Part shown: positions 26,970-45,815 of the stretch, one piece after another
Position numbering within the stretch: the stretch's first letter is position 1
How the letters are laid out: every line of letters begins with the position of its first letter
Assembly (NCBI RefSeq): GCF_008107695.1
Contig: NZ_VIRG01000066.1
Coordinates: 434,001-498,000, forward strand
DNA from: Stappia sp. BW2
Lineage (GTDB): Bacteria > Pseudomonadota > Alphaproteobacteria > Rhizobiales > Stappiaceae
Reading direction: 5' to 3'
DNA: 64,000 nucleotides
Program-made: the position numbers and the translations under genes
The notes under the pieces: generated by a model
What the model was told of the DNA's origin: nothing
The model's input: only the letters and a program-made list of their open reading frames with translations
Database searches by the model: none

Positions 26970-28325
26970 CTAACTTGCCAGAACAACCAGATCGACCGGC
27001 TGCTTGATACCGGTCACATTGGCTTTGACCCGGGCTTCGAGCAGAGGCAGTTCGAGGCCCTGACTGAGTGCAAGTTCGAACGTCGCCCTGTCCGTCAGTC
27101 CTGTTGTGCGTTGGATCTTGTTGGCGTCTTCCAGTTTCGCAGCGCGGTTGACGGCGTCGCCGATGACCGTAAATTCCAGGCGCTGCTTCGACCCGATCAC
27201 GCCGACCGTGACCGGCCCGGCGGCGGCGGCCGTACCGATACGCATAGGCTGCGGCCAGCCTGCATCGAGAAAACGCTGCTGATCCCGTTCCACAGCTTCC
27301 ACAAGCCGCCTTGCAGCCCGCAGCGCGTCGGCTGCATAAGTCGTTGAAGGACAAACGGCCCCGAAGGTCGCCAGAATGCCGTCGCCCAGAAATTTGTCGA
27401 CCCTGCCGCCTTCCTCCACGATCACATCCACCGCAAGGTTCTGGTACTCGGCCAGGACCCTCAGAACGGTCTCCGGTGCCAATGACGCAGAGGTCGAGGT
27501 GAAGGAGCGGATATCGGCATACAGAATGGCGACGTCGCGCAAAGTCCCCTCGCCGGCCTGCAACTCGGTGTTCGAGCCTGTGATCGAGGCGGCGACTTCA
27601 GGCGAAAAGAAACGGCTCAGGTCCATGGCAGCCGCATGGTCTTTCGAGGCCTCGAACAACATGGAACGCCCCCGGTAGAGGGCAACGGACAGAATGATGG
27701 TCACAGCCAAGATGACCATGGTCTTGTCGAGTTCGGCGCCGATCAGGATAGTGTTGCCAGTCAGGTATTCGACGTAATTGCGGGTCACACGCATGTGGTC
27801 CATGTCGGAGAACACCGCATAGAAGACCAGCCCCAGCCAACCGGTCACCGCTACAAGGCCCGTGGTCAACACGAAGCGAGGATCGAACCGCAAGGCTCTC
27901 AATCCGATAAAGATGAAGACATACATCAAGGTGGGCGTCTTGAGGTAGAACGTCGGGTGCTGGCCATATTGAATATGGAAGGAAAAGATCAGTCCCACCA
28001 GAAGCGCCATATCGACGATGATCGATACCAGCAGATACCAGCGCGGCAATTCAAACCTGTAGGACAGCATGAGCCGCAGGACGGTGAACAGGAAATAGGC
28101 TGCAAGCGCAATCGGCACGAAGTTGAAGCCAGCGGACCCCTCGGCCCTCGGGGCGATGGCATACAAAACTGAAAAGAACAGCACCAGGCCCAGTTGAACC
28201 CAACCGATCAGACGCTCGGAAGACGCTTCACGCGCCTGGATCTCGGACCGTACCCGATCAGGGATACCGGTGTCGGGCGGTCCCCCGCGCAGGACATAAC
28301 GCAGTGTCTTTGAAATGGAGGTCAT
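26970..28325 (-). CDS. Membrane-anchored class III adenylate/guanylate cyclase
   Basis: The 451-residue protein has about six N-terminal membrane helices (roughly residues 40-220) and a C-terminal class III cyclase domain. The domain has metal-binding Asp in VAILYADIRSFTS, VDKFLGDGILATFGA, and EFTVIGDAVNRAAKLED, with the transition-state Asn/Arg pair in DAVNRAAKL. It makes a cyclic nucleotide, most likely cAMP, at the inner face of the membrane. The polytopic input domain is not a named sensor I recognise. It is one of two class III cyclases in this window, and cyclic-nucleotide-binding and MBL-fold proteins are encoded about 3 kb away. Confidence 0.9.
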   Translation of the reverse strand: MTSISKTLRYVLRGGPPDTGIPDRVRSEIQAREASSERLIGWVQLGLVLFFSVLYAIAPRAEGSAGFNFVPIALAAYFLFTVLRLMLSYRFELPRWYLLVSIIVDMALLVGLIFSFHIQYGQHPTFYLKTPTLMYVFIFIGLRALRFDPRFVLTTGLVAVTGWLGLVFYAVFSDMDHMRVTRNYVEYLTGNTILIGAELDKTMVILAVTIILSVALYRGRSMLFEASKDHAAAMDLSRFFSPEVAASITGSNTELQAGEGTLRDVAILYADIRSFTSTSASLAPETVLRVLAEYQNLAVDVIVEEGGRVDKFLGDGILATFGAVCPSTTYAADALRAARRLVEAVERDQQRFLDAGWPQPMRIGTAAAAGPVTVGVIGSKQRLEFTVIGDAVNRAAKLEDANKIQRTTGLTDRATFELALSQGLELPLLEARVKANVTGIKQPVDLVVLAS

Positions 28326-30085: not shown

Positions 30086-30910
30086 TCAAGGCTTCAGGAT
30101 CATGCCTTCGCTGGCGACAAGCGTTCCGGGATAGGCATTTTGCGCGGCAAGGCCGATTTCATCGAGCTCATCATCAGATCTGCGTGGATCATGATGGAAA
30201 AGGACTGGTGTCTTGACGTTGCCGGCCTTCGCCAGTTCAACGGCTTTCTGCCAGGTGGAGTGCCCCCACCCCTTGAAGGTGGTGTATTCGTCGTCGGTGA
30301 ACATGGCGTCGTAGATCATCACGTCCGAGTTTCGGACAAAATCCGGGAGAGCAGCATCAATTTCCGGATCGCCATGTTCATGATCCGTGATGATGCAAAT
30401 CGATTTGCCGTGAAAATCAAAGCGATAACCGCAGGCACCACCGGGGTGGTTGAGGCGGGTGGTGCGGATGACGAGCTCGTCCGTACGCGGAAGCTGGTCC
30501 CCTGCGGTAAAGGATTTGAACTCGACCGCCTTCAGGGTCTTGGCCGCAACCGGAAAGATCGGCGGTGACATGATGCGGCTGACAATTTCAACGAGGTTGG
30601 TGTCGTCCTGAAAATGCCCGGCCCAGGCGGTGACGTTGAAACTGGGATCGTAGGCCGGCTTGAAAAAGGGAAGACCGCAGATGTGGTCGAGATGAGTATG
30701 AGTGAACAGAAGGTCGAAGGTGCGTGTCTTGCAGCTGCAGATTTCCATACCCAGGTTTCGGGCGCCGGAACCGCAGTCGACAAGAACCAGCGCATCGCCT
30801 GCCCGGATCTCAAAACAAGACGTTTCGCCGCCATAGCGGAGTGTGCTCGCCCCCGGGGTCGGGGTGGACCCTCTGACGCCCCAGCAACGAAGCGAAAATT
30901 CCTCAGCCAC
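30086..30910 (-). CDS. MBL-fold metallo-hydrolase, phosphodiesterase-like
   Basis: The 274-residue protein has the metallo-beta-lactamase signature THTHLDH (HxHxDH) with later metal ligands in LNHPGGACGY, ITDHEHGD and HHDPRRSD. The N-terminal RCWGVRGSTPTPG...LRYGGETSCFEI pattern belongs to a branch that includes cyclic-nucleotide and other phosphodiesterases. Hydrolysis of a cyclic nucleotide is attractive because the next gene upstream encodes a cNMP-binding protein, but it is unproven. The start is GTG 30910 with GGGAG 6 bases upstream; the gap to the cNMP-binding gene is 10 bases, so they share an operon. Confidence 0.85.
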   Translation of the reverse strand: MAEEFSLRCWGVRGSTPTPGASTLRYGGETSCFEIRAGDALVLVDCGSGARNLGMEICSCKTRTFDLLFTHTHLDHICGLPFFKPAYDPSFNVTAWAGHFQDDTNLVEIVSRIMSPPIFPVAAKTLKAVEFKSFTAGDQLPRTDELVIRTTRLNHPGGACGYRFDFHGKSICIITDHEHGDPEIDAALPDFVRNSDVMIYDAMFTDDEYTTFKGWGHSTWQKAVELAKAGNVKTPVLFHHDPRRSDDELDEIGLAAQNAYPGTLVASEGMILKP

Positions 30911-30920
30911 GTGTTACTCC

Positions 30921-31379
30921 CTAACCGCCGGCAGCGCCTCGACGGGCGTCGGCAAGATCCCGGGTCGTCCGTTCAAGCCGCAGCGCCAGTGTCCGCATCA
31001 CCTCCAGCGAAATATCCGGAAATTCTTTCAATAGTTTCAAAAAATCATCTTTCGAAACAGTCAGAACATCCATGTCGTTGGCGGCAACCAGTGTCGCGGT
31101 TCTTGGTACGTCGCACAGAATAGCGATTTCGCCAACAATTGAATTCTCCGAAACCTGAGCCACTTTTTTTTCGCCTTCAGGCGTTTCAACCAGAACATCG
31201 GCAGCGCCGGACAGGATGATGAAGGCACAATCGCCTTCTTCCCCCTGAGAGCACAGACGCTCGCCGGAGGGATACTCCGTCCGGTCGCTAATAAAAGCCA
31301 GAAGCCGCAACTTGGTCTCGTCGATCCCGCGGAACAACGGCACTTTGCGGAGCGCCTCGACTTCGGTTTCAAGTGTCAT
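30921..31379 (-). CDS. Single-domain cyclic-nucleotide-binding protein
   Basis: The 152-residue product is essentially one cNMP-binding beta-barrel: VPLFRGIDETKLRLLAFISDRTEYPSGERLCSQGEEGD, then the phosphate-binding cassette VGEIAILCDVPRTATLVA (Glu and Arg ligands present), and C-terminal helices ending ERTTRDLADARRG. There is no DNA-binding helix-turn-helix, so it is not a Crp-type regulator; it should act by protein contact. It lies between the ABC-like protein and the MBL hydrolase on the same strand, which suggests it couples cyclic-nucleotide level to one of them. Confidence 0.9.
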   Translation of the reverse strand: MTLETEVEALRKVPLFRGIDETKLRLLAFISDRTEYPSGERLCSQGEEGDCAFIILSGAADVLVETPEGEKKVAQVSENSIVGEIAILCDVPRTATLVAANDMDVLTVSKDDFLKLLKEFPDISLEVMRTLALRLERTTRDLADARRGAAGG

Positions 31380-31484: not shown

Positions 31485-34061
31485 TTATTCAGAGAGCCGT
31501 CCTTGATCCAGAATGAAGCGCTGATCGAATTCTGCGGCTATGTCAGCGTCGGACGTACCGAACAGGAAGGTTTTTCCGGACAGGATTTGCCTCAAGCCTT
31601 TACGAAGCGTCCTGTCCTCTTCCGTCACACCGGTGGCGATATCGTCCAATATGGTGATTTTCGCGTTTTTCAGAAGACCGCGCACCAGAGCGATCTTGCG
31701 CCGCTGGCCTGCGGACAGACGGGAACCGGACACGCCGACGTGGTAACCGAATCCCGCATAGATGATCGCGCGCCGCAAACCGGTCTCCTCGACAATGGTT
31801 CGTATGACATCGTCGATCCGCCGCCGGGCATCCCTGCGGTCGACACGCGCGCGGCCGAACAGAAGGTTATCCTCAATGGTCAGCGGCGGCAGATAAACGT
31901 CCGGTTCAAACGCGACGAAGTTGTCGCTGTTCTTGACCACCTCGTCCAGGAACGTTTGACGGGCGCTGATGATGTCGCGTTTCAACTCATCCGACATGAC
32001 ACCCAGACGATGCCGGGCCGGGACAAGCTTGAAAGCCAGTCCTGTCAGACGGGAACGGTCGGCGTCGGTCAGGCCTGGGCGCGGCTGATCGGACTTGGCA
32101 ATCCGCACGATGCGCTCGAAATCGGGGATCTCGTCCAGCGTGATGAAGGAATAGGCCCCCAACAGGCCGCTGTCGCCGGAAACGTTGGAAAACAGTTCCA
32201 GCATGGTTTCGGCAATCTTGAGACCGATCTGCTGGAGCTTCTTGTCGAAACCGGTGTCGGCCAGGAAGGTCTTGACCTGTTCGAGATCCGGCACCTGATC
32301 CATCGTGATTTCCGGATCGGCCGGCACCGCAAAGAACAGGTTGTCCGCAAGGCTGGCGCTGGCATTGAAACGGTCCCGGTGCCACAACTCGACCAGACCG
32401 CCGAGGTCCGGTTCATCGGCAATGCGCTCGGCAAGCGCCTTACGCACGTTCAGGATCTTGTCGGCGAAATCGTCGTCCATGGACGGGTCAAACCGGGACT
32501 GCAGACCGAGCCGATAGATGTCCTTGTCGATCTTGACCGTTTCAAGCAGTTCAAGCGCCTTGGTGTCGAGTTCGTCTTCATTGCCGACACCAGCGGCTTC
32601 AAAATCATCCCATTCGGCGGCAAGATCGTAGGTGGGATTGCGCGTTTCCTTGGCTTCGGAGAGCCGCCGATTGTAGTTCTTCAAGCTCTCCCCTTCCCGC
32701 TGGGGCGGGACGAGCGGACGGTGGCGCAAACCGTAGTATAGATTGTCACGAATGGTGCCCGTCCAGACATGCACCGCCCCGCCGACATAGGCGATCTGGC
32801 GCCCCAGCGTGGAATCGGTCAGCTTGTCGAGATCGTGGTTTCCGATGCAGACCTTGCCGGAGACAGGAGCAACAAGCCCTGCGGCGAGTTGCAGCACTTC
32901 CGATCTGCCGGACCCGTCCGGCCCGACAATCGCACAGGCACTTCCCGCAGGAACCGTCATCGATATGTCGACGACCTCCTGGCCGGCAGCACCACCGGCG
33001 AAATTGACGCTCTCCAGCTTGACGTCGCCGCTCAGGTCCACCGTGTCGTCCGAGGTCAGCCGCTCCTGGTCGTAGATATCCAACGGGTCGAAGTTCTCGA
33101 CGACCGTCTGGTATTTGACGCTGACATCCGCCGTCATCTGATAGAAGGAGAGCAGTTCTTTCCAGGGCCCTGCAAGATCCTTGTAGGCAGCGATCACCGC
33201 CAGCAGCGCACCGATGCTGAGATTGCCTTCAATAACCAGATAGCCGCCGATCAGGTAGAAGAAGAACGGCGTGAGCTGGTTCATGAAGTTGTTCAGAAAC
33301 TTGATCAGGAATTTCCGGTTGAAGATGTCATACCGGATCTTGAAGTTCTCATAGAGCCGGTCGGAAATATCCGCCGAATGCCAGGCGGCCGCGTCGTTGG
33401 CGTGGATTTCGGCAACGCCTGTGATGCTTTCGCCCACCTTGTCTGCGATGACACGGATGTTGCGCACCCGCTGCCTGGACAGCAGCACCACCTTGCGCTG
33501 TAGAAGCGGGATCACATACCCCTGGATGGGATAGGAGCTGATGGCTGCAAGGCCCAGAAGCGGGTCCTGCATGAAGATAAACCCGATCTGCACGACCAGC
33601 ATACCACCCTGATAGGCAGGCAGCGCGAAGGCTTCACCGATGTAGCCGCCAACATCCTCCACTTCCGATGTGATCATCGGAATGATTTCGCCTGAACTGA
33701 CTTTCCTGAAATGCGGCAGGCGGAAGCGCAGCACCCGCTGGAACAGCTCGAAGCGCAGGCGCCGCAGCATGCGTTCTCCAAGGCGGCCCTTGTAGACGTT
33801 GAGGTAGAACTTCAGCCCGTTCGAAACGACGACCAAAGACAGGAACGAAAAACACAGGAGAATAAGATAGGGGACCTGATCGAAATCGATTCCCAGAATC
33901 GTCCTGGGAAAATTGTCGCCCTGGACCGCATCGTTGACGATCAGTTTCGGCAGTTCGAGAAGGATATAGACCACCGGATACGTGAGTACGGTGACCATGA
34001 GAATGAAGATTTGCTGTCTGGAGCTATATTTCCAAATAAAACCGAAAAGGCTCTTTTCCAT
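31485..34061 (-). CDS. ABC exporter-like membrane protein with expanded, non-consensus ATPase domain
   Basis: About 858 residues, far longer than a normal half-transporter (about 580-600). The N-terminal part (about residues 1-310) has six membrane helices of the ABC exporter type. In the nucleotide-binding part, Walker A reads GPDGSGRS (Lys replaced by Arg, about residue 380). The signature LSAGQRRKIAL is about 400 residues later instead of about 110. Walker B is ITILDDIATG (catalytic Glu replaced by Asp), and the switch His is missing (FLFGTSDAD). The insertion holds repeated motifs TIRDNLYYG, SLADNLFFA and TIEDNLLFG. ATG 34061 has GGATGAG upstream. It is divergent from a glycosyltransferase operon. 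Confidence 0.85.
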   Translation of the reverse strand: MEKSLFGFIWKYSSRQQIFILMVTVLTYPVVYILLELPKLIVNDAVQGDNFPRTILGIDFDQVPYLILLCFSFLSLVVVSNGLKFYLNVYKGRLGERMLRRLRFELFQRVLRFRLPHFRKVSSGEIIPMITSEVEDVGGYIGEAFALPAYQGGMLVVQIGFIFMQDPLLGLAAISSYPIQGYVIPLLQRKVVLLSRQRVRNIRVIADKVGESITGVAEIHANDAAAWHSADISDRLYENFKIRYDIFNRKFLIKFLNNFMNQLTPFFFYLIGGYLVIEGNLSIGALLAVIAAYKDLAGPWKELLSFYQMTADVSVKYQTVVENFDPLDIYDQERLTSDDTVDLSGDVKLESVNFAGGAAGQEVVDISMTVPAGSACAIVGPDGSGRSEVLQLAAGLVAPVSGKVCIGNHDLDKLTDSTLGRQIAYVGGAVHVWTGTIRDNLYYGLRHRPLVPPQREGESLKNYNRRLSEAKETRNPTYDLAAEWDDFEAAGVGNEDELDTKALELLETVKIDKDIYRLGLQSRFDPSMDDDFADKILNVRKALAERIADEPDLGGLVELWHRDRFNASASLADNLFFAVPADPEITMDQVPDLEQVKTFLADTGFDKKLQQIGLKIAETMLELFSNVSGDSGLLGAYSFITLDEIPDFERIVRIAKSDQPRPGLTDADRSRLTGLAFKLVPARHRLGVMSDELKRDIISARQTFLDEVVKNSDNFVAFEPDVYLPPLTIEDNLLFGRARVDRRDARRRIDDVIRTIVEETGLRRAIIYAGFGYHVGVSGSRLSAGQRRKIALVRGLLKNAKITILDDIATGVTEEDRTLRKGLRQILSGKTFLFGTSDADIAAEFDQRFILDQGRLSE

Positions 34062-34291: not shown

Positions 34292-35506
34292 ATGAGTTCC
34301 AAGACGCCGAAGATCCTGATTTACAGCCACGATTCCTTCGGGTTGGGCCATCTGAGACGCTGCCGGGCAATTGCGCAATCCCTTGTCGGCGACTTCGATA
34401 CCTTGTCCGTACTGATCCTGTCGGGTTCCCCGATCATAGGCAGTTTCGAGTTTCGATCCCGTGTCGATTTCGTGCGGATTCCGGGCGTGATCAAGCTGCG
34501 CAACGGCGAGTACACCCCGCTGTCGCTGCACATCAACATCGACCAGACTCTGGCGATCAGATCCTCGATTATCGAACATACTGCCAAGGTGTTCGATCCG
34601 GACATCTTCATCGTCGACAAGGAGCCCCTCGGGCTGCGCGGCGAAGTGCTGCGCACGCTAGAGGCCCTGAAGGATACCGACACGCGACTGGTTCTTGGAC
34701 TGCGCGATGTCATGGACGACCCGCAGGTGCTGAAGGAAGAATGGGATCGCAAGAACGTCTATCCGGCCCTGCGCGATCTTTACGACGAGATCTGGATCTA
34801 CGGACCGGAAGACATCTGCGATCCGCTGGAAGGCATCGACCTGCCGCAATCCGTCCGCGACAAGCTGCGCTACACCGGTTACCTGCGCCGGGAGCTGCCC
34901 AAATCGGCGCTCGACAATCCGGCCCCTGCCCCGTTCGATGAAGAACCGTATATCCTCGTGACGCCAGGTGGCGGTGGCGATGGCGTTGAAATGGTCGATT
35001 GGGTGATGCGCGCCTATGAAGCCCGGCAGCGCCCGCTGTTCCCGGCCCTCATCGTGCTTGGTCCCTTCATGCCCGCTGCGGCCGCGACCCAGTTCAGCGA
35101 AAGGGCGGAGCATCTGCGCGATGTCGAGATCATTCGCTTCACGCCGCAGATCGAACCCTATCTTGCCAAGGCCACGGCGATTGTCGGCATGGGCGGCTAC
35201 AACACCTTCTGCGAGATCCTGTCCTTCGACAAACCGACGCTCATGGTGCCCCGCGTCATTCCACGCCGGGAGCAGGCAATCCGGGCGGAGCGTGCGGAAC
35301 AGAGCGGGCTTTTGAAGGTGCTGCCGATCGACCAGTACCCAGATCCGGACTTGATGGCTGCGGCCTTGTCCGAACTGCCTGGCATGGCATCTCCTTCGGC
35401 TGCGGGCGTCGACAATCTGCTTGGCGGTCTGGATGTCATATCCAGCCGGGTCGGCGAAATCTTTGAAGAACAGCAGGCCACCAGCAGGAAGCTGGTCAAC
35501 TTCTGA
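34292..35506 (+). CDS. MurG-like (GT28-type) glycosyltransferase
   Basis: The 404-residue GT-B enzyme has the N-terminal loop SHDSFGLGHLRRCRAIAQSL (like the GGTGGH loop of MurG). Its C-terminal donor-binding domain has VTPGGGGDGVEMVD and MGGYNTFCEILSFDKPTLMVPR, which match GT28 nucleotide-sugar binding. No membrane segment is present; it probably acts at the cytoplasmic membrane face. First gene of the five-gene operon; ATG 34292 follows AGGGGCAG. Acceptor and sugar are unknown. It is similar in plan to the fourth gene of the same operon. Confidence 0.82.
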   Translation: MSSKTPKILIYSHDSFGLGHLRRCRAIAQSLVGDFDTLSVLILSGSPIIGSFEFRSRVDFVRIPGVIKLRNGEYTPLSLHINIDQTLAIRSSIIEHTAKVFDPDIFIVDKEPLGLRGEVLRTLEALKDTDTRLVLGLRDVMDDPQVLKEEWDRKNVYPALRDLYDEIWIYGPEDICDPLEGIDLPQSVRDKLRYTGYLRRELPKSALDNPAPAPFDEEPYILVTPGGGGDGVEMVDWVMRAYEARQRPLFPALIVLGPFMPAAAATQFSERAEHLRDVEIIRFTPQIEPYLAKATAIVGMGGYNTFCEILSFDKPTLMVPRVIPRREQAIRAERAEQSGLLKVLPIDQYPDPDLMAAALSELPGMASPSAAGVDNLLGGLDVISSRVGEIFEEQQATSRKLVNF

Positions 35507-35549
35507 CCACCCCGTCACCAGCAAACCGAATTCTTTCAAGGGCCGACCG

Positions 35550-36770
35550 ATGTCCCGTATCGCCGTTGTGGTCAAAGGCTATCCCCGCCTGTCCGAAACC
35601 TTTATTGCCCAGGAAATGCTTGGTCTGGAGCGGCGGGGAATCGAAATTCTGATTGTCGCCCTGCGCAGGCCTTACGATCCCTATATCCACGACCTGCACC
35701 GGCAGATCAGCGCGGAAGTCATGTATCTGCCGGAATATGTGAAAGACGACCCGGCACGTGTTGCCCGTGCCAAACGCTGGGCAGAAAATCAGCCGACTTT
35801 CAAGGAAGCCAAGGCTCTGTTCGATGCCGACTTCGCGCATCAGCCGAACGCAGACCGGCAGCGCCGTTGGGCGCAGGGGTGCGTCTTCGCGCATGAATTG
35901 CCGGAAGACGTGACCTGGATCTACACCCACTATCTGCATACGCCCTGCTCCGCCTCGCGCTATGCGGCGCATCTTTCCGGGCGGAAATGGTCCTTCTCGG
36001 CGCACGCCAAGGACATCTGGACCAGCCCGGACTGGGACCTGAGGACCAAGATCAACGACGCGGCCTGGGGCGTCACCTGTACGGCGGTCAACGCCGAACA
36101 TCTGAAAGGCCTCGCCGACGAGCCGGACAAGATCGAACTGCTCTATCACGGGCTCGACTTCTCCGGTTTTCCCGAGCCAAAGGCAAAAGGAGCGGCGCGT
36201 GACGGCGGTGCGGAGCCCGTGCGCCTGGTTTCCGTCGGTCGCGCCGTCGAGAAGAAGGGCTATGACGACCTTCTGGACGCGCTTGTACAGCTTCCCGCGT
36301 CTCTCAACTGGCAGTTCACGCATATTGGCGGCGGTGAGCTTTCCGACATCCTGAAGGCAAAGGCTGATGAGTTGAACCTGTCGGACAGGATCATCTGGCG
36401 GGGAGCCCAGCCACGCGAAGAGGTGATTGCGACCTGCCGCGAGGCGGACCTCTTCGTGCTACCGTCCAAGCTTGCCAGATCCGGTGACAGGGATGGCCTG
36501 CCCAACGTCTTGATGGAAGCACAATCCATGGGGATTTGCTGCCTCTCCACCAGGGTTTCCGCGATACCTGAATTGATCCTGGATGGCGAAACCGGTGTGC
36601 TGGTTGATCCGGGCGCGCCAGAGGCTCTGGCTGCAGCAATGCAGAACCTGATGACCGCGCCTGAAACACGTCACCGTCTTGGGCTTGCCGCGGCCAAGCG
36701 GGTCAGAACGACCTTCTCGACAGACCCGGGTCTTGATCGGCTCGCAGACAAATTCCGCAAGGTCCTTTAG
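35550..36770 (+). CDS. GT4-family glycosyltransferase
   Basis: The product has about 406 residues. The start MSRIAVVVKGYPRLSETFIAQEML is typical of family 4 colanic-acid/EPS-type enzymes (KGYPRLSETFI motif). The C-terminal Rossmann domain has LVSVGRAVEKKGYDDLLDAL, a lysine-containing EX7E-type region DLFVLPSKLARSGDRDGLPNVLMEAQSMG, and PELILDGETGVLV. It is a retaining GT-B enzyme using a nucleotide sugar. The open frame extends back into the preceding gene, but ATG 35550 gives the family start. The gap to the upstream gene is 43 bases. Confidence 0.9.
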   Translation: MSRIAVVVKGYPRLSETFIAQEMLGLERRGIEILIVALRRPYDPYIHDLHRQISAEVMYLPEYVKDDPARVARAKRWAENQPTFKEAKALFDADFAHQPNADRQRRWAQGCVFAHELPEDVTWIYTHYLHTPCSASRYAAHLSGRKWSFSAHAKDIWTSPDWDLRTKINDAAWGVTCTAVNAEHLKGLADEPDKIELLYHGLDFSGFPEPKAKGAARDGGAEPVRLVSVGRAVEKKGYDDLLDALVQLPASLNWQFTHIGGGELSDILKAKADELNLSDRIIWRGAQPREEVIATCREADLFVLPSKLARSGDRDGLPNVLMEAQSMGICCLSTRVSAIPELILDGETGVLVDPGAPEALAAAMQNLMTAPETRHRLGLAAAKRVRTTFSTDPGLDRLADKFRKVL

Positions 36771-36790: not shown

Positions 36791-37918
36791 ATGAAAATCG
36801 CTTTCACTGCCCCGATGAAACCGCTGGATCATCCAGTCCCGTCCGGCGACCGGACCATGGGACGATTGATCGTGAAGGCACTGGAAAGTCTCGGGCATGA
36901 GGTGACGATTGCCAGCCGGTTCCGGTCGTGGCGCAAGGACGGCAGCGACAGTATCCAGTCTGAAGTGCGCGAGCAGGCGCTCGCCGAGGCAGAGCGGATA
37001 GGCGCCGACTGGGAGCAGTCGGGCTACCGGCCCGATCTTTTCCTGACCTATCATCTTTACCACAAGGCGCCAGACTGGATCGGCCCTGCTCTTGCTGACC
37101 GGTTCGACCTTCCCTACGCCATCGTGGAAGCCAGCCGCGCGCCGAAACGGCAACAGGGCGACTGGGCGTCCGGCTTTGCCGCCGCCGACGCGGCCTTGCA
37201 GCGCGCCGACGCCGTCGCTGCGCTCCACCATGCGGATGCCGAATGCCTTGCAGAGGTCGTCCCTCATCGCTGTCTTTCGGTGATGCTGCCGTTTCTGGAT
37301 GCCGACCCCTTTCTGGCCGCCGCGGCCTACGCCAAGCCTCTGGCAGCACCTCCGCTCAACCTGCTGGCTGTCGGCATGATGCGCGAGGGCGACAAGCAGC
37401 GCTCCTACGAAGTGCTTGCCGCGGCGCTGGCCGAGCTTCGGGATCTGCCCTGGCAACTGACACTGATTGGCGACGGCCCGGTGCGCGATCAGGTGCTGGG
37501 GCTTTTTCCAGCCGAGCGGATCACCTGGCTCGGCGCTCTGTCCGGCGAGGACCTTCCTGCCCAATACGCGCGGCACGACCTCCTCGTCTGGCCGGCGATC
37601 CGAGAAGCCTTCGGCCTCGTTCTGCTGGAAGCGCAAGCAGCAGGCGTCGGTGTCATTGCCGGTGACACCTTCGGGGTTCCCGATATTGTCCGCGACGGGG
37701 AAACAGGATTGCTGTCGCCTGAGGGGGACGCACATGCCCTCGCCGCCAACCTGCGCCGTGCGATGCAGGAGCCGGCGCTTGTGGACAGGCTGGGCCTGGC
37801 CGCGCGCCATCACATCCAGCATTTTCACACCCTTCCGGCAGGCGCTGCCCGGCTGGAAGCCCTTGCGGAAAAGGCCGTGCGGAACCACCTGAGCCGCCGG
37901 GAGACGAAAGACGCATGA
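36791..37918 (+). CDS. GT4-family glycosyltransferase
   Basis: The 375-residue product starts MKIAFTAPMKPLDHPVPSGDRTMGRLI. Its C-terminal GT-B half has LLAVGMMREGDKQRSYEVLAAAL, LVWPAIREAFGLVLLEAQAAGVGVIAGDTFGVPDIVRDGETGLL (the EX7E region EAFGLVLLE) and a tail of helices. It is a retaining nucleotide-sugar-dependent transferase, donor unknown. It starts 20 bases after the previous gene and overlaps the next by 4 bases (ATGA), so translation is coupled. Confidence 0.88.
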   Translation: MKIAFTAPMKPLDHPVPSGDRTMGRLIVKALESLGHEVTIASRFRSWRKDGSDSIQSEVREQALAEAERIGADWEQSGYRPDLFLTYHLYHKAPDWIGPALADRFDLPYAIVEASRAPKRQQGDWASGFAAADAALQRADAVAALHHADAECLAEVVPHRCLSVMLPFLDADPFLAAAAYAKPLAAPPLNLLAVGMMREGDKQRSYEVLAAALAELRDLPWQLTLIGDGPVRDQVLGLFPAERITWLGALSGEDLPAQYARHDLLVWPAIREAFGLVLLEAQAAGVGVIAGDTFGVPDIVRDGETGLLSPEGDAHALAANLRRAMQEPALVDRLGLAARHHIQHFHTLPAGAARLEALAEKAVRNHLSRRETKDA

Positions 37919-39069
37919 GCTTCAAGGCCCTCATTCATGTTCAGCATCTGCTTGGGACAGGCCACGTCGTGCGGGCGGCCGCCATCGGCAAGGCGCTGTC
38001 CGCCGAAGGCGTGGAGGTTACCCTTGCCAGCGGCAACGCCATACCGCCGACACTCGACACCGGGCCGCTGAAGGTCGTCGAGCTCCCAGCCTGCAAAAGC
38101 CCGGATGCCAGCTTCAAGCGCCTTGTGACTTTGGATAATGAAGATATTGACGAGGCTTGGAAAATCGCGCGCGTTAAAGCATCGATTCAAGTTCTCGATG
38201 CCGACGACTACGACCTGCTTTTGACCGAGACCTACCCTTTCGGCCGCCGCCAGCTCGACTTTGAGCTGACCCCGCTGCTGGAAGCGGCAACGTCCCGCAC
38301 AAGGGCGCCGCTGATTGCCACGTCCATCCGGGATATTCTGGTGCGCAAGAAGCAGCTCTGGAAGGAGCGCTGGATGGCGGACCAGGCGCTGAAATACTAC
38401 GACCGGATCCTGATCCATTCCGATCCCGACTTCATCCGCCTTGCCGACAGTTTCCCCTTTGCCGAGGAGGTCGACCATCTGGTTCGCTACACCGGGTATG
38501 TGGGCGGCGAGCCCCGGCCTGCCGCTGAAGGCACCGATGGCGAGGACGAGGTGGTCATTTCTTGTGGCGGCGGCGCCGTTGCCGAAAGCCTGCTGTCGGC
38601 AGCGTTGGAAGCAAGGCCACTGTCCCGGCGAGCCGAAGACACACAGTGGCGGGTGCTGATCGGTCACGATATTTCCGACGATGCCTTTGCCATCTACCGG
38701 CAAAGCGCCGTCGACGGCGTGATCGTGGAGCGGGCCCGGCGAGACTTCCCGGACCTTCTGAAACGCGCGCGGCTTTCCGTCAGCCAGGCGGGTTACAACA
38801 CGGTGCTCGACATTCTACAGGCCGGGGTTCCAGCCGTTTTCGTGCCCTTTGCCCAGATCAACGAAACCGAACAGACGCAACGCGCGGAAGCGCTGGCCGG
38901 CCATGGCCGGGCCATTGTCACGCCGGAGGCAGACCTTACGCCGGAGCGGCTTGCTGGCGCCATTGACGATGCCCTTGCCCTTTCCCGCAGCAAGCACACA
39001 GTCCGCCTCGGCGGCGCCGAGGAAAGCGCCCGCGTCCTGCTTCAAGACCTGAAGGACCGGATGACATGA
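37915..39069 (+). CDS. MurG-like (GT28-type) glycosyltransferase
   Basis: The 384-residue product has the same plan as the first gene of the operon: N-terminal loop HVQHLLGTGHVVRAAAIGKAL and a C-terminal GT28-like donor domain with VISCGGGAVAESLL and SQAGYNTVLDILQAGVPAVFVPF. The central acceptor region differs, so the two probably use different acceptors. The ATG overlaps the upstream stop, and its own stop overlaps the next ATG, indicating tight co-expression with both neighbours. Confidence 0.82.
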   Translation: MSFKALIHVQHLLGTGHVVRAAAIGKALSAEGVEVTLASGNAIPPTLDTGPLKVVELPACKSPDASFKRLVTLDNEDIDEAWKIARVKASIQVLDADDYDLLLTETYPFGRRQLDFELTPLLEAATSRTRAPLIATSIRDILVRKKQLWKERWMADQALKYYDRILIHSDPDFIRLADSFPFAEEVDHLVRYTGYVGGEPRPAAEGTDGEDEVVISCGGGAVAESLLSAALEARPLSRRAEDTQWRVLIGHDISDDAFAIYRQSAVDGVIVERARRDFPDLLKRARLSVSQAGYNTVLDILQAGVPAVFVPFAQINETEQTQRAEALAGHGRAIVTPEADLTPERLAGAIDDALALSRSKHTVRLGGAEESARVLLQDLKDRMT

Positions 39070-39848
39070 CCACTGATGCGAAGCGCTTCCGGCAAGAGCT
39101 GACCGATCATCTCGACTGGTTCGCCGAACGCGGCCGCAAGGTGCGCTTCTGGTGGCGGGATGACGATGCCGTCGAGCCGACGCCTGCCCTTGAGCGTATG
39201 CTGTCGCTCGCCGACAGCCACAACGTCGATCTGGCATTCGCCGTCATTCCGAAGATGGCCACCAGAGCCCTTGCAGAGCGGCTTGCCGGGGAGCCTCATG
39301 CGCTGGTCTTGCAGCATGGCTGGCAGCACAAGAATTTCCAACGGAAGGATCTCGGCGAAAAGGCCGCGGAGCTTGGCTCCCGGCGGGACCCGGACGAACT
39401 GATGGCCGAGCTCAAGTCAGGCCATGACCGCCTTCAGGAGCTCTTCGGCGAGAAGTTCGTCAAGGCCATGGTGCCGCCCTGGAACCGGATCGACCCGGAA
39501 ATCTCGCGCCGTCTGCCTGGCCTCGGCCTGCCGGGTCTTTCAACCTTTACCTGGCACAACTTTCCGCGGGCGCATCAGCTCCAGTCGCACATCGACATCC
39601 TGAAATGGAAAAAGCAGGTGCGCTTCATCGGCTGGGAAAGCGCGCGCCTTCGTTTCGATCTACAGCTGACCCGCCGGCGCAACACCGGCACCGAGCCGGT
39701 TGGCCTCCTCACGCACCATCTGGTGCATGACGATGGCTGCTTCGAGTTTCTGGACGTTTTCCTGGAGATTGCCGCCCATCATGAAGGTGCGGAATGGCCG
39801 GAGGTGAAGAGCCTTTTCGGCGAGAATGGCTCCTGGCCGTTCGGATGA
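39066..39848 (+). CDS. NodB-like polysaccharide deacetylase
   Basis: The 260-residue protein has the NodB-homology first motif as FWWRDDDAVEPTP (catalytic base Asp and metal Asp), a His-containing second motif in LVLQHGWQHKNFQ, and a third region VPPWNRIDPEIS (Arg/Pro motif). A late LTHHLVHDD could supply the catalytic His. No signal peptide is seen, so it appears cytoplasmic. It would remove acetyl groups from an N-acetylated sugar, probably on the operon's glycan precursor. Last gene of the operon. Confidence 0.8.
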   Translation: MTTDAKRFRQELTDHLDWFAERGRKVRFWWRDDDAVEPTPALERMLSLADSHNVDLAFAVIPKMATRALAERLAGEPHALVLQHGWQHKNFQRKDLGEKAAELGSRRDPDELMAELKSGHDRLQELFGEKFVKAMVPPWNRIDPEISRRLPGLGLPGLSTFTWHNFPRAHQLQSHIDILKWKKQVRFIGWESARLRFDLQLTRRRNTGTEPVGLLTHHLVHDDGCFEFLDVFLEIAAHHEGAEWPEVKSLFGENGSWPFG

Positions 39849-44514: not shown

Positions 44515-45156
44515 ATGTCCGCTCACGACCACGATCATTCCCACGATCACGACCATTCCGAACTCAGCGAAGTCGAGCTGCGCGTGCGCGCCCTGGAAAC
44601 GCTGCTGACGGAAAAGGGCTATGTCGATCCTCCTGCCCTGGACGAATTGATCGAGACCTACGAGAGAAAAATCGGCCCGCGGAACGGCGCCCTTGTGGTG
44701 GCAAAGGCGTGGACTGACCCGGACTATCGGGAGCGGCTATTGAAAGACGCAACGGCAGCCATAGCCGAGCTTGGTTTCACCGGCCGGCAGGGCGAACACA
44801 TGGTGGCCGTCGAGAATACCGACGACATTCACAACATGGTCGTCTGCACGCTGTGCTCCTGTTATCCGTGGACCGTCCTGGGTCTGCCGCCGGTCTGGTA
44901 CAAATCTGCGCCCTACCGCTCCAGAGCCGTACGCGACCCGCGCGGCGTTCTGGCCGAGTTCGAAGTGACGCTGCCCGATGACACCGAGATCCGCGTCTGG
45001 GATTCGACGGCCGAAATCCGGTATCTGGTGATCCCGAAACGTCCTGCAGGAACCGATGGCTGGAGCGAAGACCGCCTGGCCGATCTTGTCACCCGCAACA
45101 GCATGATCGGAACCGGGCTCGCCCTTGAACCTTCCACCCTGGAGGATGCAGCATGA
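44515..45156 (+). CDS. nthA: Nitrile hydratase alpha subunit, cobalt type
   Basis: The 213-residue subunit hydrates nitriles to amides together with the beta subunit. The metal-claw motif VCTLCSC (Cys111, Cys114, Cys116) has Thr at the position that indicates low-spin Co(III) rather than Fe(III); two of these cysteines are oxidised in the mature enzyme. An unusual N-terminal tail [11 protein letters not shown] holds seven His in the first 14 residues and might help metal loading. The stop overlaps the beta start (ATGA). It is divergent from the aromatic operon. Confidence 0.95.
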
Positions 45157-45815
45157 ACGGTGCGCAGGATCTGGGTGGGCAGATGGGCTTCGGCCCCATT
45201 GAACTGGAAGAAAACGAGCCGAACTTTCACGCCAAATGGGAAGAACGTGCCTTTGCCATGACATTGGCCATGGGCGCGACCGGATCCTGGACGCTGGATG
45301 CCTCGCGCTTTGCCCGCGAATCCTTGCCGCCGGTCACCTATCTCTCTTCCAGCTATTACGAGATCTGGACCCGGGGACTGGAAAAACTCCTGCTTTCCAA
45401 CGGCCTTGTAACGGAAGAGGAGCTGAAAGAAGGCCGAAAGCTCGAAGAGCCCAAGTCTGTCAAGCGCGTGCTCTTGGCAGATGACGTCGCCGGAACCCTG
45501 TCCAAGGGTGCGCCGGTTGAGCGGGACGTGCACCAGCCTGCCAGGTTCCAGGTCGGTGACAAGGTTCACACACGACGCATAAACCCCGAACACCACACCC
45601 GCCTGCCCCGTTACGCCCGCGATGCCGTCGGCACGATTGAGGTCGTTCACGGCGTTCACGTGTTTCCAGACACAAACGCCCACGGCGAAGGCGAACAGCC
45701 TGCCTGGCTCTACGGCGTTCTCTTCAAGGGCACGGACATCTGGGGGCGGGATAGCGATCCCAAGCTGACCCTGCGCATTGATCTCTGGGAGCCTTATCTT
45801 GACCTTGCCCGCTGA
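45153..45815 (+). CDS. nthB: Nitrile hydratase beta subunit
   Basis: The 220-residue subunit begins [41 protein letters not shown], the standard beta N-terminus. It contains [13 protein letters not shown] and the C-terminal SH3-like barrel [43 protein letters not shown] with [12 protein letters not shown]. It supplies Arg residues that contact the oxidised cysteines of the alpha subunit. The gene order is alpha, beta, accessory protein. Confidence 0.95.

Follow-up and report, generated by a model that had tools for sequence, protein, structure and literature searches.

The 64,000-nucleotide window analyzed here (Stappia sp. BW2, contig NZ_VIRG01000066.1, positions 434,001 to 498,000) contains a gene for an 858-residue protein that is built like an ATP-binding cassette (ABC) exporter, i.e., with a transmembrane domain (TMD) joined to a nucleotide-binding domain (NBD). 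The NBD is enlarged by an insert that is found throughout the protein family and in which one short motif is repeated, the Walker A motif of the ATP site has changed repeatedly within the family, and the gene is linked to, or fused with, sequence encoding a cyclic-nucleotide-binding (CNB) domain and is frequently linked to glycosyltransferase genes. We tentatively propose that the protein exports or flips a glycan intermediate under the control of CNB, and that its enlarged NBD is becoming, partly or wholly, a regulatory platform. The first-pass annotation of the gene, made from the sequence alone, had described the enlarged domain without mention of the CNB partner or the glycosyltransferase cluster; the present finding reaches beyond it because of this partner and of the graded loss of the ATP site. 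The features of the gene and of its CNB neighbor are as follows.

31485..34061 (-): ABC-exporter-like gene, 858 aa, ATG at 34061 and stop at 31485; conserved family-wide
33072..34061 (-): TMD, residues 1-330, with PF00664 at 53-290 (Pfam, AF2)
32727..33071 (-): N-terminal half of the NBD, residues 331-445 (best stretch of PF00005 at 365-470; NBD fold in VIA-align)
32901..32924 (-): Walker A, GPDGSGRS, residues 380-387, Lys replaced by Arg (sequence)
32730..32756 (-): motif copy 1, TIRDNLYYG, residues 436-444 (hhalign to the canonical post-Q-loop element)
31878..32726 (-): extra sequence within the NBD, residues 446-728 (expanded spacing in 102/102 non-redundant members)
32328..32354 (-): motif copy 2, SLADNLFFA, residues 570-578 (profile comparison, pattern)
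31854..31880 (-): motif copy 3, TIEDNLLFG, residues 728-736 (runs into the normal C-terminal half of the NBD)
31488..31877 (-): C-terminal half of the NBD, residues 729-858 (profile match of 712-806 to the segment of ordinary exporters)
31704..31718 (-): signature, LSAGQ, residues 782-786 (sequence)
31641..31658 (-): Walker B, ITILDD, with ILDD at residues 804-807, catalytic Glu replaced by Asp (sequence)
31548..31556 (-): H-loop position, TSD instead of His, with GTSD at residues 835-838 (sequence)
30921..31379 (-): CNB protein, 152 aa, next downstream gene, cassette GEIAILCDVPRTAT (PF00027)

The anatomy of the protein is practically certain. At an E-value of 0.1, Pfam matched only PF00664 (61.5 bits, cut-off 28) and PF00005, i.e., ABC_tran (64.7 bits in two stretches, cut-off 25), and no C39 peptidase domain. 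The best NCBIfam model was TIGR02203 (MsbA), at 157.4 bits far under its equivalog cut-off of 602. Among the hallmarks of type IV ABC exporters, PF00664, PF00005, an LSGGQ-like signature and the exporter fold of TMD and NBD are present, whereas the Walker A pattern GxxGxGK[ST], the Walker B Glu, the switch His and the spacing of ~100-110 residues are not. The signature variant LSAGQ is shared by two ordinary exporters encoded in this genome (L186, L188). The coordinates, strand and motifs reported earlier (GPDGSGRS, ILDDIATG, GTSD, and LSAGQ) were all exact. Structure prediction of the monomer, which had been suggested as a check, yielded a retained exporter fold: the AF2 model of the whole protein, based on an alignment of 53 sequences, had a pLDDT of 81.2 and a pTM of 0.73, with mostly 80-93 in the NBD and insert and <50 at residues 155-182 and 288-297 of the TMD. 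In VIA-align, the whole chain matched TM287/288 over 417 residues (Z 25.6, root-mean-square deviation (rmsd) 4.5), and the NBD matched that of ComA over 219 residues (Z 25.2, rmsd 2.6). In this model, the insert is added onto a complete NBD.

Walker A and the signature are 402 residues apart, which bears out the earlier estimate of about 400; in 13 further exporters encoded in this genome, the distance is 102-109 (of 20 other ABC_membrane proteins compared, 13 were scored by pattern and 7 could not be scored). A spacing of 388-473 residues was found in all 102 non-redundant family members, a set obtained from 143 proteins that scored 250 or more with the profile (L151-L153 scored below) by dropping L086 and removing near-copies. 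The motif [ST][IVLM]x[DE]N[LIM]x[FY][GA] is present at residues 436, 570, and 728. When the stretch from Walker A to the signature was shuffled 100,000 times, 8 shuffles contained one copy and none contained two or more, so the threefold occurrence already noted, then written as DNL(Y/F)xG, stands. Residues N574, N732, R540, R701, and W484 are present in 102/102 members, and N440 in 99/102.

In exporters, the element following the Q-loop helps to receive the coupling helices. A canonical reference profile was made of the segment from this element to Walker B of the 13 ordinary exporters. Unit 3 of the protein (residues 712-806) scored 123.9 against it over 81 columns (best of 40 shuffles, 17.8), unit 1 57.8 over 22 columns (16.4), and unit 2 34.5 over 36 columns (21.2); two TMD stretches, which served as control, scored ~10. 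Therefore, one canonical post-Q-loop element is present in three copies, of which unit 3 represents the C-terminal NBD half as found in ordinary exporters. Compared with each other as non-overlapping units (423-555, 556-711, and 712-799), units 1 and 2 gave a profile comparison score of 38.2 (best of 60 shuffles, 21.0), units 1 and 3 30.9 (16.6) over 61 aligned columns, and units 2 and 3 72.8 (19.0) over 58; overlapping units aligned over more columns, but these are shared by construction. In each unit, the predicted secondary structure runs from a strand through the DN helix and a helical stretch to a long Arg-bearing helix, after which the next strand follows; the Arg is the invariant R540 or R701 in the first two and R794 (100/102) in the third. 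The equivalence of whole units is attractive but not proven, given how few columns align and that no significant fold match was obtained for the insert in isolation. Folded by itself (pLDDT 85.5), the insert gave nothing better than E 2.1 in Foldseek. Its top row in VIA-align, residues 440-511 of MsbA (Z 3.2, rmsd 2.9, 68 residues), is tied by unrelated proteins, and this resemblance is only suggestive. The earlier idea that one NBD segment was amplified internally thus holds for the motif and its neighborhood, which are demonstrably repeated; amplification of the whole segment found no such support, as units 1 and 2 share just 19 aligned columns.

The ATP site shows a graded loss. Among the 102 members, Walker A has its Lys in 24, an in-register Arg in 54, and neither in 24; Arg occupies the position in 64 members, ten of which lack the preceding Gly and were put in the last class. 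Some members of this class (e.g., L138 and L139) retain a glycine-rich loop without Lys, but those of the Rhodobacteraceae type do not, and in two of the latter, L085 and L087, which are fused to CNB, Pfam matched PF00664 and PF00027 and not PF00005. The Walker B acid pair and the H-loop, in which the switch His was sought within a four-residue window, vary as well. A survey of the Arg, the Asp and the missing His, as recommended in the first-pass annotation, revealed them to be specific to this branch and variable in the family at large, whereas the insert and the repeated Asn are common to all of it; constraint appears to have shifted from catalytic residues to residues of the insert. On a quickly built TMD-only tree of 87 family and 7 outgroup rows, the Walker A state changes at least ten times and the Lys forms lie nearest the outgroup, with a root that is uncertain because the outgroup branches are very long. 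In Sinorhizobium meliloti, the Walker A Lys is lost (GGTSGGGEAL) and the ABC_tran match still reaches 39.6 bits. Because Walker A Lys, Walker B Glu and H-loop His are missing from the window protein and vary within the family, impaired ATP hydrolysis, as suggested earlier, is the likeliest consequence.

These residues also bear on a rather unlikely alternative, i.e., that the protein remains an ATP-driven exporter, either hydrolyzing slowly with its Arg and Asp or forming a heterodimer with an unlinked ordinary half, and that CNB is a mere regulator. The window protein has LSAGQ and the Walker B Asp intact, and Lys is kept in the 24 members mentioned. Moreover, Lys, Asp-Glu and His occur together in two of the 102 (L098 and L102), at expanded spacing; of the canonical homologues with normal spacing that could have overturned the first-pass annotation, the residues were thus encountered in 2/102 and the spacing in 0/102. 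Degenerate sites are common in non-homodimeric exporters, being present in 21 of 29 human ones according to the review PMC7756269. Against an ATP-driven exporter, members that lack a recognizable Walker A or signature have been maintained and their TMD is well conserved; the two without an ABC_tran match are among them. A heterodimer could draw on at least 13 ordinary exporter halves in the same genome, but no linked ordinary half was recognized in 78 stretches reaching up to ~10 kb on each side (profile E 1e-40, at least 450 aa); a distant partner is possible.

Another ABC protein of at least 450 aa is encoded in 12 of these 78 stretches (L084, L085, L154-L156, L158, L159, L163, L164, L168, L170, and L171). 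All belong to one group, 47-73% identical to the L155 copy. They carry GESGSGK[ST], 10/12 with SFSGGQRQRIGIAR, which are importer-type features; the group was rejected as linked heterodimer partner and is read as a fused importer-type ATPase. In these loci, the gene lies beyond the glycosyltransferase cluster; at that place in S. meliloti (L174:1-5340), an ATPase gene is followed by genes for a solute-binding protein and two permeases. Together with the 12 stretches, this suggests that an importer travels with the glycosyltransferase cluster. Elsewhere in the genome of the window (G000:C17:1486530-1489852; L003, L005, L181, L182), two neighboring ABC exporter genes on the same strand have an intact Walker A and no recognizable LSGGQ, with VPTSTLQRI and IPDNMKQRI at the place of the signature.

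The TMD is the best-conserved region of the protein. Identity to 29 genomes of the genus was 0.913 in the TMD, 0.813 and 0.845 in the two NBD halves, and 0.762 in the insert, and one ordinary exporter gave 0.906 in the TMD and 0.913 in the NBD (in each half of this comparison, the 29 genomes are the top scorers of that search and not one fixed set). To six far members, identity was 0.46 in the TMD vs. 0.23-0.25 in the NBD parts. The ratio of nonsynonymous to synonymous substitution rates (dN/dS) by region in five pairs ranged from 0.035 to 0.365 and was lowest in the TMD; these values are rough, with dS mostly >1 and one TMD value that was not estimable. The open reading frame (ORF) looks to be under purifying selection. 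Therefore, the TMD is constrained like that of an ordinary exporter, whereas the NBD is relaxed but kept.

The gene is present in 37/37 genomes of the genus (its own included) and in 46/61 relatives overall at E 1e-100. Of the named relatives found, Roseibium aggregatum IAM 12614 is the closest (96% identity), although records nearest the genome itself were possibly left out. A profile of the insert region matched 131/385 alphaproteobacterial genomes at E 1e-20 (118/315 of the good ones) and, at E 1e-15, 31/398 genomes drawn from the phylum, all 31 inside the class. Further family members lie on large replicons in genera such as Rhizobium, Sinorhizobium, Azospirillum, and Ruegeria (262 plasmid records); among the matches listed, annotations, where there are any, read ABC transporter ATP-binding protein, ATP-binding cassette, or ABC transporter transmembrane domain-containing protein. 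This distribution decides on the possibility that the gene is misassembled or a decaying pseudogene that has lost its function. Its catalytic residues are missing, the S. meliloti 1021 record is broken, and L086 has an internal stop. Nevertheless, with the same architecture in every genome of the genus and far beyond, low dN/dS, and an S. meliloti strain 2011 copy that reads through, an artefact or pseudogene was rejected as extremely improbable, and assembly error as the source of the insert, which the first-pass annotation had left open, is ruled out by the family-wide conservation. The S. meliloti 1021 copy (NC_003078.1, L175:14001-16710) is one base longer than that of strain 2011 and does not read through, which may reflect a sequencing error or a true lesion. 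In L086, a metagenome-assembled Rhodobacteraceae copy (match from 10001), the stop lies inside the ORF. The S. meliloti family member may be SMb20813, to judge from its map position. In PMC10945364, SMb20813 is named as the msbA homologue of S. meliloti.

The CNB gene starts 105 bases downstream of the ABC gene. Its product matched PF00027 with an E-value of 1.1e-20 (73.8 bits, cut-off 27.5) and carries the phosphate-binding cassette pattern GE...R[TSA]A; solved structures near it include the CNB domains of cGMP- and cAMP-dependent protein kinases. Throughout the family, CNB is encoded within 3 kb downstream on the same strand or is fused, i.e., in 58/58 (L038-L095), 55/55 (L096-L150), and 20/20 loci (L154-L173), with C-terminal fusions in 10, 6, and 2 of them, respectively. 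These sets overlap, and L086 was scored as separate, its ORF being broken by the stop; many organisms also occur in both L009-L037 and L038-L095. The median gap between the ABC and CNB domain matches is 79-100 bases, and a CNB domain is found somewhere in the stretch in 29/29 loci of the genus. By comparison, no CNB domain was found near a control exporter in 30 loci or near other exporters of the same genome in 20 loci with shorter flanks; as the latter were centered on the TMD and extend a few hundred bases past the gene, the 30 loci are the fairer control. The profiles of CNB and of the other neighbors were built from L038-L085, and presence in these loci is therefore partly by construction, but adjacency is not. 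On the TMD tree, CNB is fused in two separate branches. Three fused members with the Walker A Lys retain the canonical CNB cassette. In the class with neither Lys nor Arg at Walker A (24 members), the canonical cassette is present in 10, all with a separate CNB, and one member is unclear. The S. meliloti CNB retains GEIAILCNTPRTAT although its ABC copy has lost the Walker A Lys.

Divergent from the ABC gene lies a glycosyltransferase cluster, and two further genes are found on the other side.

34292..35506 (+): GT28-like glycosyltransferase (GT28a), divergent from the ABC gene (profile matches)
35547..36770 (+): GT4-type glycosyltransferase (profile matches)
36791..37918 (+): GT4-type glycosyltransferase (profile matches)
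37915..39069 (+): second GT28-like glycosyltransferase (GT28b; profile matches)
39066..39848 (+): polysaccharide-deacetylase-like protein (PF01522, 22.9 bits, just below the cut-off of 23.1)
30086..30910 (-): metallo-beta-lactamase (MBL)-fold hydrolase (weak matches to NF041851, cyclic-nucleotide phosphodiesterase, and to RNase Z)
26970..28325 (-): class III adenylate/guanylate cyclase (PF00211)

For the MBL-fold hydrolase, NF041851 scored far below its cut-off and the RNase Z models were also below theirs. The neighbors were counted at a profile E-value of 1e-25 in L038-L085 (48 loci), L086-L095 (10), and L154-L173 (20), with models of which the two for GT28 cross-match, as do the two for GT4. 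In this order of sets, GT28a was found in 48, 1, and 17 loci, GT1a in 48, 1, and 18, GT1b in 47, 1, and 18, GT28b in 47, 1, and 17, and the deacetylase-like protein in 46, 1, and 14; the corresponding numbers are 45, 0, and 2 for MBL and 39, 5, and 1 for the cyclase. Therefore, the link to the glycosyltransferases is broad, though mostly missing from the stretches L086-L095, and MBL and cyclase are neighbors mainly in Roseibium and its relatives. The gene order deviates in some loci (L085, L092, L171, L172). The cyclase gene is found in the stretches L086, L087, L089, L090, and L095, and in L086, L087, L089, and L095 it lies upstream of the ABC-CNB gene. At 44515-45812 (+), the window also contains genes for the alpha and beta subunits of a nitrile hydratase (PF02979, PF21006, PF02211).

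The linkage of both glycosyltransferases and CNB would also suit a protein that does not transport at all, i.e., a membrane-anchored scaffold or sensor that uses the exporter fold as a platform, gathers glycosyltransferases and reports a cyclic nucleotide signal. The expendable ATPase motifs and an NBD enlarged by ~280 residues with invariant N, R, and W fit such a role. We nevertheless consider it unlikely: the TMD is the best-conserved part even in the six far members (0.46 vs. 0.23-0.25), as expected if transport persists, and 9 of the 10 loci L086-L095 have no glycosyltransferases in the stretch.

The conserved TMD, the relaxed and enlarged NBD, the CNB in every scanned locus and the glycan genes lead us to the CNB-controlled exporter or flippase proposed at the outset. 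The CNB partner suggests that a signal molecule exerts control, either alongside ATP hydrolysis or in its place. The protein would be one half of a probably homodimeric membrane protein with the type IV ABC exporter fold, which would serve the adjoining glycosyltransferase cluster and most likely carry an intermediate of glycan or glycolipid nature across the inner membrane. The NBD would have retained its fold and gained two extra copies of the post-Q-loop element within ~280 additional residues. The ATPase residues would have been freed from strong constraint, and control handed, partly or wholly, to the adjacent CNB protein. Possibly, the latter docks on the enlarged NBD and switches the membrane part when a cyclic nucleotide or another CNB ligand binds.

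Several observations weigh against this proposal. The window protein retains LSAGQ and the Walker B Asp; with Lys kept by some members, and Lys, Asp-Glu and His by two, ATP may still be used. Despite its invariant residues, the insert changes fastest of all regions between close relatives. Thirteen fused members without Walker A Lys or Arg fail the strict CNB cassette, so control by cyclic nucleotides is not general. Besides their absence from nearly all of the stretches L086-L095, glycosyltransferases are missing from the stretch in 2-3 of the 20 wider loci, and MBL (2/20) and cyclase (1/20) fall outside the wider cluster. In HetC of Nostoc PCC 7120, an ABC exporter whose CNB domain is required for function, the best ligand of that domain in vitro was ppGpp, cAMP was not bound, and the ATPase Glu is essential, according to PMC10986499.

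A bolder version, which we regard as quite unlikely, holds that the lineage is exchanging its motor, ATP hydrolysis being replaced by gating of a glycan-precursor flippase or channel by a CNB protein docked on the repeat-built enlargement of the NBD. In this version, the living members would include intermediates, from Lys-bearing forms to forms without a recognizable ATP site. If the reading of CNB control holds, the family would offer a natural series of stepwise ATPase loss in an ABC transporter under strong selection on its TMD, with the CNB protein as candidate replacement for the ATPase. It raises two questions, namely whether an exporter fold can function once ATP hydrolysis is lost, and whether the export of a surface glycan in Alphaproteobacteria, including Roseibium and rhizobia, is under cyclic-nucleotide control.

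In a literature search on the family, its architecture and HetC, which covered few subscription journals, no paper on the family was recognized. Among known systems, the exporters of the MsbA/ABCB type (MsbA, TM287/288, the ComA NBD) share with the protein a PF00664 TMD joined to an NBD and the fold of the whole chain, but the protein differs in its ~290 extra NBD residues, its Walker A Arg, its Walker B Asp and the lack of a switch His. CFTR and SUR are examples of an ABC exporter fold with a degenerate site that was turned to gating or regulation; they retain ATP binding and one working site, and are not known to have a CNB partner or a repeated NBD motif. The degenerate-site exporters (TAP, BSEP, and others) have likewise lost the catalytic Glu and the H-loop His; according to PMC7756269, they form asymmetric pairs in which one site out of two is degenerate. 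In contrast, no linked partner was found here, many members have lost even the Walker A Lys, and the insert is large. HetC, with an N-terminal CNB domain, a C39 peptidase domain and an essential ATPase Glu, differs from the protein described here, in which CNB is separate (or, in other branches, fused C-terminally), Pfam gave no match to a peptidase domain and Asp replaces the Glu. It nevertheless provides, according to PMC10986499, a precedent for an ABC exporter that depends on a CNB domain.

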